Shown here piece by piece: positions 12,572-15,325 of a DNA stretch of 64,000 nt. The notes below the pieces were generated by a model, which had not been told where the DNA came from, did not search any database, and saw only the letters and a program-made list of their open reading frames with translations. The DNA is from Myxococcota bacterium. GTDB lineage: Bacteria; Myxococcota_A; UBA796. The stretch spans positions 1 through 64,000 of the forward strand of contig JAQXDW010000054.1 in NCBI GenBank assembly GCA_029251165.1, given 5' to 3'. The translations under genes and the position numbers were made by a program. The stretch's first letter is position 1. The number at the start of each line of letters is the position of its first letter.

Positions 12572-13843
12572 ATGATCCAGTATGCCGCGCAGACCGACGT
12601 CGGACGACGTCGAAACCAGAACGAAGACGCCCTTTTCGCCAGCGTGGAGAACGGGGTGTTTGTGGTCGCTGATGGCGTGGGGGGCCGAGCTGCCGGAGAG
12701 CTCGCGAGCGCACTGACCGTCGAGACCTTCGAGGCTGCCTGCAGTGAGCTGAATGCGGCGGTCGATCGGTACACCGCGCGTCCAGAGTGGCAGACCCGCA
12801 ACGAGGTCCTCGAGCTGCTCGACGGCATCTGCCAGCGGGCCAGTCGCTCCGTCTACGATGAGTCTGAGCGCCGAAACAAGCGCGGCATGACCACCACACT
12901 GGTCACCGCAGTGGTCGGCGGCGGCGCCGTCTTCCTCGCACACGTCGGGGACTCCCGGGCCTACCTCATCCGCGACGGACTCATTCGCCAGCTCACCGAG
13001 GATCACTCGATGGTCAACGAGCTGGTCCGGTCGGGTCAGATGACCTACGAGGAGGCCATCCGGTCTCGCTACCGCAGCGTCATCACCCGCGCAGTCGGCC
13101 TGTACCCCACCGTCCAGGCCGACGTCATGTGCATCGAGGTCCTTCCCGGTGACCGGCTGGTGCTCTGCTCCGATGGTCTCTCCGATCCGGTCTCAGAAGA
13201 AGACATCGAGTCCATCGCCAGCCAGGACGATGTCGAGACCGCCACCAGCCAGCTCATCCTCCGCGCCCTCGAGAACGGCGGCCCAGACAACGTCACCGTC
13301 GTGCTCATTGAGCCAGAGGCCTCTGAGGAAGCGGAGGCAGCACGCGCCCGGGCGCAGGTCATGGAGGAGCTGTTCCTGTTCACCGACCTGCCGTTCCATG
13401 CCCGCCTCCGGGTCTCTCGGATCTGCGAGGAGCTGTTCTTCACGCCCGGTCAAGTCCTCGTCTCAGAGGAGGCTCCGGGAGACGCGATGTTCGTCATCGT
13501 TCAGGGACATGTCGTTGTCTCTCGCAACGACATTCCCCTCGCCCGCTTAGAGGCCGGACAGCACTTCGGCGAGCTGGGCTTGCTCGATGACACCCCGCGC
13601 TCCGCGACGGTCAGCGGCGGCTCCTATGGCTCGGCGGTTGTGGTGCGACGGGCGCAGCTGCTGGAGTTCACCCAGCGAGATCCAGAGCTCGGCAACCACA
13701 TCCTCTTGCGGCTCCTTGCTGCGCTCGGTGAGCGCCTGCGAGACATGAACGCCCGCTTGACCAACAACGTCATCCAGGACATCCCGGCGAGCGCGCTGGA
13801 GACGGTAGAGCTGACGGCAGAAGAGCCGAACAGCAACGCCTGA
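12572..13843 (+). CDS. PP2C-family Ser/Thr phosphatase fused to a cyclic-nucleotide-binding domain
   Basis: Residues 1 to about 245 form a PP2C (Stp1-type) phosphatase. Metal-binding and core motifs are ADGVGG, GMTTTLV, HVGDSRAYL, LCSDGLSD and GGPDNVTVV. Residues about 270-400 form a CRP-like cyclic-nucleotide-binding fold with the phosphate-cassette-like HFGELGLLDDTPRSATV. The protein is soluble. The fusion suggests that phosphatase activity is gated by a cyclic nucleotide or another ligand; this is inference from architecture. GAGG lies just before the ATG. The next gene begins five bases after its stop. Confidence 0.92.
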   Translation: MIQYAAQTDVGRRRNQNEDALFASVENGVFVVADGVGGRAAGELASALTVETFEAACSELNAAVDRYTARPEWQTRNEVLELLDGICQRASRSVYDESERRNKRGMTTTLVTAVVGGGAVFLAHVGDSRAYLIRDGLIRQLTEDHSMVNELVRSGQMTYEEAIRSRYRSVITRAVGLYPTVQADVMCIEVLPGDRLVLCSDGLSDPVSEEDIESIASQDDVETATSQLILRALENGGPDNVTVVLIEPEASEEAEAARARAQVMEELFLFTDLPFHARLRVSRICEELFFTPGQVLVSEEAPGDAMFVIVQGHVVVSRNDIPLARLEAGQHFGELGLLDDTPRSATVSGGSYGSAVVVRRAQLLEFTQRDPELGNHILLRLLAALGERLRDMNARLTNNVIQDIPASALETVELTAEEPNSNA

Positions 13844-13848
13844 ATTCG

Positions 13849-14730
13849 ATGCTCCGCTGGACCCCCTCAGGCGCTGTCTCCCTTCCCCTCACCGTTCAGA
13901 TCCGGGTACAGCAGCGGTATCCAGGACGGGTACAGGCAGGCGCACCGCTGCCGACTCGTAGCCTCTCCCCCAAAGAGCTGGCGGACAACATCCGCTACTT
14001 CACCGTGGGACTTCGCACCCCACGGACCGCGCCCTGTACTGCGCTGGTGCTCTCAGGAGTCGGGGTCGCACACCGCCCAGACGTGCCCGAGGCCATGGCA
14101 CTGGCCCGGGCAGAGGGCATCCAGCGCATCATCCTTCATGCCGGCACTGGTGATCTGACGGGACTGCCGCTGGTGGACTTCTCCGAGACCGTAAGCCTGC
14201 TGGTGGTGCCCATCCACGGTGAGCCTGCGGCTGCACTCGCCGCCATTCAGGCAGCCCATGCCGCTGGTCTCGCGGTCTGCGCCAACGTCGTCCTCTCCGC
14301 AGCCACCCTTCCCCACCTCCCGCAGATCGCCGCCGCGCTTGCACAGCTCGGTCCGCAGCAGACCAACCTCACCTACCCCCTCCCGACCTCTGAGCGTCTC
14401 CGCACCGTCCCAGAGCCGGCGGAGGCTTCTGCAGCGGTCGCCGCTGCGGTCGTGATCCTGGAGGAAGCGAGCAGGGCGGTGAACATCAAGGGGCTGCCGG
14501 TCTGCTACCTCGCCGGGCTCGCTCGCCTGATCCGCCGCACCAACAATCGCTGGTACGTCGACGCCGATCACCAGCAGGATCAGGCGCTGCTGTTTTTTCC
14601 GGGCGTGGTCTCCTTCCACAAAGAAGACACCTGCCGGTTCTGCACCGCAGATGCCCACTGCGACGGCTTCTTCACCGAGTACCTCAGCCGGGATGGCTTC
14701 CCTCCGCTCTCGCCGCTCGCGCGCGGCTGA
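13849..14730 (+). CDS. Degenerate radical-SAM-like protein lacking the SAM-cluster cysteines
   Basis: The 293-residue protein follows the radical SAM sequence order. LSGVGVAHRPDVPEAMALARAEG resembles the Gly-rich strand and following helix, and IILHAGTGDL resembles the next strand. At the place where CxxxCxxC should lie, it reads VQIRVQQRYPGRVQAG (residues 16-31), with Tyr24, Val28 and no third Cys. The C-terminus retains Cys262, Cys265 and Cys271 (CRFCTADAHC), like a SPASM/twitch auxiliary-cluster motif. It probably cannot cleave SAM. It is tightly coupled to the upstream phosphatase gene, and its stop lies one base from the stop of the convergent gene. Confidence 0.65.
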   Translation: MLRWTPSGAVSLPLTVQIRVQQRYPGRVQAGAPLPTRSLSPKELADNIRYFTVGLRTPRTAPCTALVLSGVGVAHRPDVPEAMALARAEGIQRIILHAGTGDLTGLPLVDFSETVSLLVVPIHGEPAAALAAIQAAHAAGLAVCANVVLSAATLPHLPQIAAALAQLGPQQTNLTYPLPTSERLRTVPEPAEASAAVAAAVVILEEASRAVNIKGLPVCYLAGLARLIRRTNNRWYVDADHQQDQALLFFPGVVSFHKEDTCRFCTADAHCDGFFTEYLSRDGFPPLSPLARG

Positions 14731-14731
14731 C

Positions 14732-15325
14732 TCACTGAGTACTGAGCAGAATCTGAAGCTGACGGTGCTGCTTCTGAGCACGCTCCCGATAGCGTATAGA
14801 GCCTCCTTCGGCGCGCTTCAGGGAATCCAGCGCACACTCGACGTCGCCCTCCAGCAGACACGCTTGAGCGAGATACCACCACAGCTGTCCAGAGGGTTCA
14901 GGGGCATCCGCGAGCGGCAGGAGCACCTCACGGGCCTCTCGCGAGTCTCCTGCACAGAGAAACGATGCTCCCTCCATCACCCGAATCTTCGCGTGGTCGG
15001 GATTCCGACGCCCGGCGGTACGAAAGTGCGCAGCAGCGGTCTGACAGTCACCGCGCGCAAGATCCATCATCCCGATCTCGGCAGACTCTGGAAGCGAGTC
15101 GGAGAACTCCACCCGCGGGGCAGCGGTGATGGCGATGTCTGCGTAGGGAGATGGAGTGCTGGCGGCATGCCGCCCCTGCAGACTCCATACCGCTCCGACG
15201 ATGATCACAACCAGCGGGATCGCAGCACGGAGAAGCGGCCACGGACCTGAAGGCGGATCGGGTGGTTGCTGCTGCCACTGGGGGCGCAGGATGTTGTCAT
15301 CTTCCGGTCGCTGAGTCCCGTCCAT
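14732..15325 (-). CDS. Membrane-anchored TPR protein, unknown function
   Basis: The 197-residue protein has a Pro/Gln-rich cytoplasmic N-terminus of about 30 residues. One transmembrane helix follows (LLRAAIPLVVIIVGAVWSL). The remaining roughly 120 residues form TPR-like helical hairpins (ARGDCQTAAAHFRTAGRRNPDHA; CLLEGDVECALDSLKRAE). This topology suggests a periplasmic scaffold. It converges with the radical-SAM-like gene with a single base between the two stop codons. Confidence 0.7.
   Translation of the reverse strand: MDGTQRPEDDNILRPQWQQQPPDPPSGPWPLLRAAIPLVVIIVGAVWSLQGRHAASTPSPYADIAITAAPRVEFSDSLPESAEIGMMDLARGDCQTAAAHFRTAGRRNPDHAKIRVMEGASFLCAGDSREAREVLLPLADAPEPSGQLWWYLAQACLLEGDVECALDSLKRAEGGSIRYRERAQKQHRQLQILLSTQ

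Follow-up and report, generated by a model that had tools for sequence, protein, structure and literature searches.

A putative pseudo-radical-SAM protein family with invariant auxiliary-cluster cysteines in an order of Myxococcota

The stretch of Myxococcota DNA analysed here (64,000 nucleotides, hereafter the window) encodes a protein of 293 aa that very probably descends from a radical-SAM enzyme and has lost the site of radical chemistry, with four cysteines of a putative auxiliary cluster kept in every aligned member of its family. Pseudo-radical-SAM proteins are already a recognised kind, represented by the NCBIfam pseudo-SAM/SPASM model TIGR04347 (pseudo_SAM_Halo). By sequence comparison the window protein falls into a new, separate family of this kind, the unusual feature of which is its retention across a whole order. 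This pattern suggests that the protein was given a new job after radical chemistry was lost, and we somewhat favour the combined reading of the family as non-radical, [4Fe-4S]-carrying ligand-binding proteins.

The open reading frame runs on the forward strand from an ATG at 13849 to a stop codon ending at 14730, the coordinates originally given for it being correct, and the gap that separates it from the end of the phosphatase gene at 13843 indeed measures five bases (ATTCG). It is a real gene and not a decaying one: the closest pairs of homologues show dN/dS of 0.07-0.17. Its parts and the gene preceding it are as follows.

12572..13843 (+), PP2C phosphatase (Stp1/IreP-like) with a C-terminal cNMP-binding domain, upstream
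13849..14730 (+), pseudo-radical-SAM (twitch-type) protein, 293 aa
13849..13887 (+), N-terminal beta hairpin MLRWTPSGAVSLP; T5, G8, V10 and P13 invariant across the family
13891..13905 (+), strand beta-1, TVQIR; Q17 and R19 invariant
13909..13965 (+), former RS-cluster loop, residues 21-39; Y24, V28 and G31 replace three Cys; family consensus RxYPGRVRAGAPxPTRSM
14053..14067 (+), SGVGV, residues 69-73, replacing the SAM-binding motif TGGEP; Glu absent in 46 of 46 members
14137..14145 (+), H97-A-G, invariant His ending beta-3; TNG in canonical relatives
14488..14505 (+), KGLPVC (K214-C219), first auxiliary-cluster Cys, invariant
14545..14574 (+), NRWYVDADHQ (233-242), family hallmark between auxiliary Cys 1 and 2
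14632..14661 (+), CRFCTADAHC (C262, C265, C271), CxxCx5C auxiliary-cluster motif

In radical-SAM enzymes the CxxxCxxC motif binds the RS [4Fe-4S] cluster, and GGE after strand beta-2 binds the amino group of SAM. A MAFFT alignment with 25 canonical radical-SAM relatives places the three cysteines of this motif, with no gap, opposite Y24, V28 and G31 of the window protein, within residues 18-31 (IRVQQRYPGRVQAG), which hold no Cys at all; the original claim of a cysteine-free segment in the CxxxCxxC position is thereby borne out. The joint alignment pairs CNNxCxxC with YPGRVQAG, TGGEP with SGVGV, TNG with HAG, and GxPxC and CxxCx5C with KGLPVC and CRFCTADAHC. CxxxCxxC is found in none of the 49 members with an intact N-terminus (46 aligned and three further), and none of the 46 aligned members has Glu at the GGE position, the GGE strings present in seven members lying elsewhere in the family alignment (e.g. 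LHVGGED). The vacated Cys positions are filled by Y or F (37/46), V or I (41/46) and G (43/46).

The C-terminal CxxCx5C motif persists, as had been proposed, in the form of CRFCTADAHC. A fourth candidate ligand, C219 of KGLPVC, was missing from the original list and is equally invariant. These four are the only cysteines conserved throughout, all of them present in 46 of 46 aligned members, and the same positions are also Cys in nearly all canonical relatives of the joint alignment. The cysteine pattern of the family, with four residues universally kept and both radical-site signatures universally absent, is not due to chance. A SPASM domain carries cysteines for two auxiliary clusters in a seven-Cys motif, and the family, with four invariant Cys in the whole protein, does not qualify as such; its C-terminal extension with cysteines for a single auxiliary cluster is of the twitch type.

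The AF2 model, built from 45 homologues (pLDDT 92, pTM 0.90), is a partial TIM barrel. Its top Foldseek matches in the PDB are PqqE (6c8v), SkfB (6efn), viperin (5vsl) and SuiB (5v1s), and radical-SAM proteins also dominate the informative matches of a fold search in the viral library; with TM-scores mostly of 0.5-0.6, these are similarities at the level of fold only. The peptide maturases PqqE, SkfB and SuiB share 8-14% identity with the window protein and, unlike it, are active radical-SAM enzymes with SPASM domains. Profile comparison by hhalign with canonical radical-SAM relatives, mostly from the same order as the family, gives 99.2-99.5% probability over 229-245 columns. The partial barrel and this detectable homology place the family in the radical SAM superfamily by descent. 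The ancestry originally predicted has therefore survived the two observations named in advance as speaking against it: the fold is not other than a partial TIM barrel, and no true homologue keeps CxxxCxxC. Descent from a peptide-modifying enzyme in particular, which was part of the same proposal, is possible, but none of the canonical relatives closest to the family has a function established by experiment. A PDB sequence search with the profile brought up CMP-KDO synthetase and HisA-type barrels, though weakly (E of 0.004 at best); these were set aside, since fold search and profile comparison lead in another direction.

Among named models, the best sequence-level relatives are HxsC and HxsC4 (TIGR03977, NF038332), from which the window protein differs by the absence of CxxxCxxC. 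Its HxsC4 match covers the C-terminal CxxC..CxG region and, at 20.5 bits, lies below the cut-off of 500. TIGR04347 has 27 matches in the genome of the window, none of them this protein, and is also absent from the families matched by the homologues; among 14 control genomes only one has a match over the cut-off of this model. The twitch-domain enzyme BtrN has a comparable single auxiliary cluster site with four Cys but possesses an active RS cluster, whereas the loss in the present family is natural and fixed across the order. No description of the family was found in the open-access literature on pseudo or inactive radical-SAM proteins. The protein also escapes Pfam and NCBIfam, which calls for caution in annotation.

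Matches to the protein occur in 51 of 58 related genomes and in 26 of the 27 good ones (at least 90% complete, at most 5% contaminated). The family profile search recovers true members in 54 of the 63 genomes of the order; the raw count of 55 includes one genome (G020) left out because its sole match, at 47 bits, is a canonical paralogue. Across 284 genomes of the phylum no true homologue was found outside the order, where the best match reaches 62 bits; pieces of members score at least 147 bits, with the exception of one split N-terminal fragment. CxxxCxxC is present in those relatives from outside the order that were examined. When 84,980 species genomes were scanned for the hallmark NR[WF]YVDA[DEA], 40 loci emerged, all of them strong family matches; many are recognisably on contigs already known from the order, membership not having been checked individually. 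The public records of relatives, nearly all metagenome-assembled genomes, are labelled Myxococcota, Deltaproteobacteria or Proteobacteria; four further records holding family members (L084, L085, L086 and L110) bear the evidently wrong labels Bifidobacterium breve or Klebsiella pneumoniae. The gene is largely single-copy and order-wide. In a midpoint-rooted tree, with a small sample as outgroup, all pseudo members cluster together (support 0.845) at the end of a long stem, consistent with a single loss in the order's ancestor. Most simply, the RS-cluster cysteines and GGE would have been lost once, before the order diversified.

The vacated site itself has been rebuilt. Residues 20-37 form a conserved loop with the consensus VQRxYPGRVRAGAPxPTR, in which R27, A30, G31, A32, P33, P35 and R37 are each conserved in 41-45 of 46 members, and residues 17-59 carry on average a net charge of +3.6. 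Residues 1-60, which include the remodelled basic loop GRxxAGAPxPxR, show the lowest dN/dS in most close pairs, down to 0.02, with exceptions such as the pair L021/L023. The active site of radical-SAM enzymes lies at the C-terminal strand ends, and here conservation is higher at the C-terminal than at the N-terminal strand ends (Mann-Whitney p = 0.005). Together with the strong purifying selection, this indicates that the former catalytic site is maintained rather than eroding. Computation on the aligned sequences thus shows a former cluster loop turned into a conserved basic G/A/P-rich loop under strong purifying selection.

What could such a protein do? Computation traces the family to a radical-SAM protein that ended in a twitch-type domain, and with the RS-cluster cysteines and GGE lost family-wide, reductive cleavage of SAM would be impossible for the descendants. 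The four auxiliary cysteines probably still hold one fully Cys-ligated [4Fe-4S] cluster. A precedent is the BtrN triple mutant C16A/C20A/C23A, which lacks the RS cluster and retains its four-Cys auxiliary [4Fe-4S] cluster (PMC9012708); the four residues could instead bind zinc. The open end of the barrel may bind an anionic or peptide ligand: secondary structure and conservation outline a putative pocket there, its mouth lined by R19, the new loop, R59, H97, P177 and K214-G215. The cluster would then serve to support the structure or to sense redox state. What auxiliary clusters do in radical-SAM enzymes has been described as largely enigmatic, and they can participate in electron transfer (PMC10470005), so that a redox role is possible. 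A natural family with the auxiliary site and without the radical site would offer a ready system for probing cluster and barrel free of SAM chemistry. A binding or regulatory function, as first proposed for the protein, would be compatible with the absence of radical chemistry. A more specific scenario, a one-time conversion in the order's ancestor to a core non-radical Fe-S protein (regulator or enzyme) with the loop as ligand site and the auxiliary cluster as sole cofactor, is conceivable, and we put it forward tentatively, as rather doubtful.

The alternatives to a ligand-binding protein differ in how much of this picture they give up. The most radical would deny the ancestry, in favour of a TIM barrel of other origin whose C-terminal zinc knuckle resembles CxxCx5C by coincidence. 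Single-sequence Pfam and PDB searches with the window protein, which returned no significant match to radical-SAM families, agree with this; only 2 of 45 members match Pfam Radical_SAM (PF04055) at E up to 0.1 (best 0.0083), short of the curated cut-off, and 8 of 8 canonical relatives match it at E of 0.001 or better. That the Pfam model misses nearly all members is, however, expected because the proteins are degenerate, and the profile-profile match, the fold search, the end-to-end alignment including loop and four Cys, and HxsC4 matches in 22 of 45 members (best E 5.6e-6) all count against an unrelated origin, which was already disfavoured and strikes us as extremely improbable. A less drastic departure would have the barrel reused for non-radical catalysis: the basic loop would hold a substrate that carries a phosphate or carboxylate, R19, R59 and H97 would take part in catalysis, and the cluster would be structural. 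Invariant charged residues at the barrel mouth (H97 in 46/46), the very strong purifying selection on what was once the catalytic segment and the order-wide, largely single-copy distribution would all suit a new enzyme; yet the protein bears no recognisable catalytic signature, no pathway genes travel with the gene, and no convincing sequence match links it to a known non-radical TIM-barrel enzyme. We regard such an enzyme as unlikely, though worth keeping in mind, and lean, without going further than that, towards a binding or redox-regulatory protein.

Two further alternatives assign the protein a partner encoded nearby. Regulation of the PP2C-cNMP phosphatase is suggested by the five-base spacing in the window and by a PP2C gene immediately upstream in G000, G001 and G003. 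These are, however, only three of 44 loci and all belong to one family (f1, that of the window); where other families offer enough flanking sequence, PP2C lies at a greater distance or is not found, the gene occurring anywhere in the fetched upstream stretch at 10 of 44 loci, one of them a short match that may be another PP2C. The coupling to the phosphatase gene implied by the original prediction does not hold as a general property, homologues do not always sit beside PP2C-cNMP genes, and a regulator of this phosphatase is very improbable. A more frequent upstream partner is a protein of roughly 175 aa, which we call c6, encoded on the same strand within 900 bp upstream at 12 of 44 loci, at some of which it extends into the region where the pseudo-radical-SAM gene starts; judging by profile-search coordinates, genomes that have both genes carry them side by side in about 17 cases. 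Within the class c6 occurs in 36 of 71 genomes, all from this order. Its AF2 model (pLDDT 91) finds its best PDB matches among papain-like folds, at E of only 0.04-0.1, and there is a weak match to the C39-like DUF3335; c6 has no invariant Cys or His. Both proteins might accordingly form a module of two pseudoenzymes binding a peptide or protein tail, a suggestion favoured by the adjacency, the restriction of c6 to the order and its faint papain- or C39-like character. It is weakened by the many genomes that have the pseudo-radical-SAM gene and no detected c6, by the occurrence of c6 elsewhere on another contig without a shared neighbourhood, and by the weakness of the fold match itself, and we judge it improbable. 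As a partner of the ligand-binding protein that we prefer, c6 is a candidate only, and a lead.

The remaining surroundings of the gene are less regular. No conserved neighbour points to a ligand or partner, and no conserved small peptide or transporter indicative of a RiPP setting was recognised among the shared neighbours (ORFs of at least 60 aa), most of which were not formally annotated. PADLOC gave no match for the pseudo-radical-SAM protein. Downstream, among loci with enough flank, leucine dehydrogenase is present at 13 of 26, and either leucine dehydrogenase or scpA/scpB at 15 of 26, which looks like old synteny rather than function.

Several minor observations concern neighbouring or related genes. 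Separated from the pseudo-radical-SAM gene, c6 shows no widely shared neighbour; in the window's genome it lies on a separate contig, and in other families it is often directly upstream (examples of c6 are L040:9049-9567 (-), L048:5420-5932 (-) and G000:C63:22659-23168 (-)). The window's PP2C phosphatase barely exceeds the Stp1/IreP cut-off (232.5 vs 230 bits), and in PADLOC its fused cNMP-binding domain weakly matches Pycsar-type effectors, which probably reflects only the shared domain. A TPR protein at 14732-15325 (-) converges on the pseudo-radical-SAM gene; in family f5 its relatives are encoded by longer open frames (about 440 aa), and their N-terminal part includes an HxxxCxxC segment resembling a zinc finger, so that the copy in the window may be truncated or have another start. 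Elsewhere in the window's genome, seven radical-SAM-like matches within 28 kb (G000:C5:110106-137731) form a possible radical-SAM cluster. Tandem pairs of canonical radical-SAM genes, their open frames overlapping in different frames, are found at L067:1041-3133 and L070:4693-7025.
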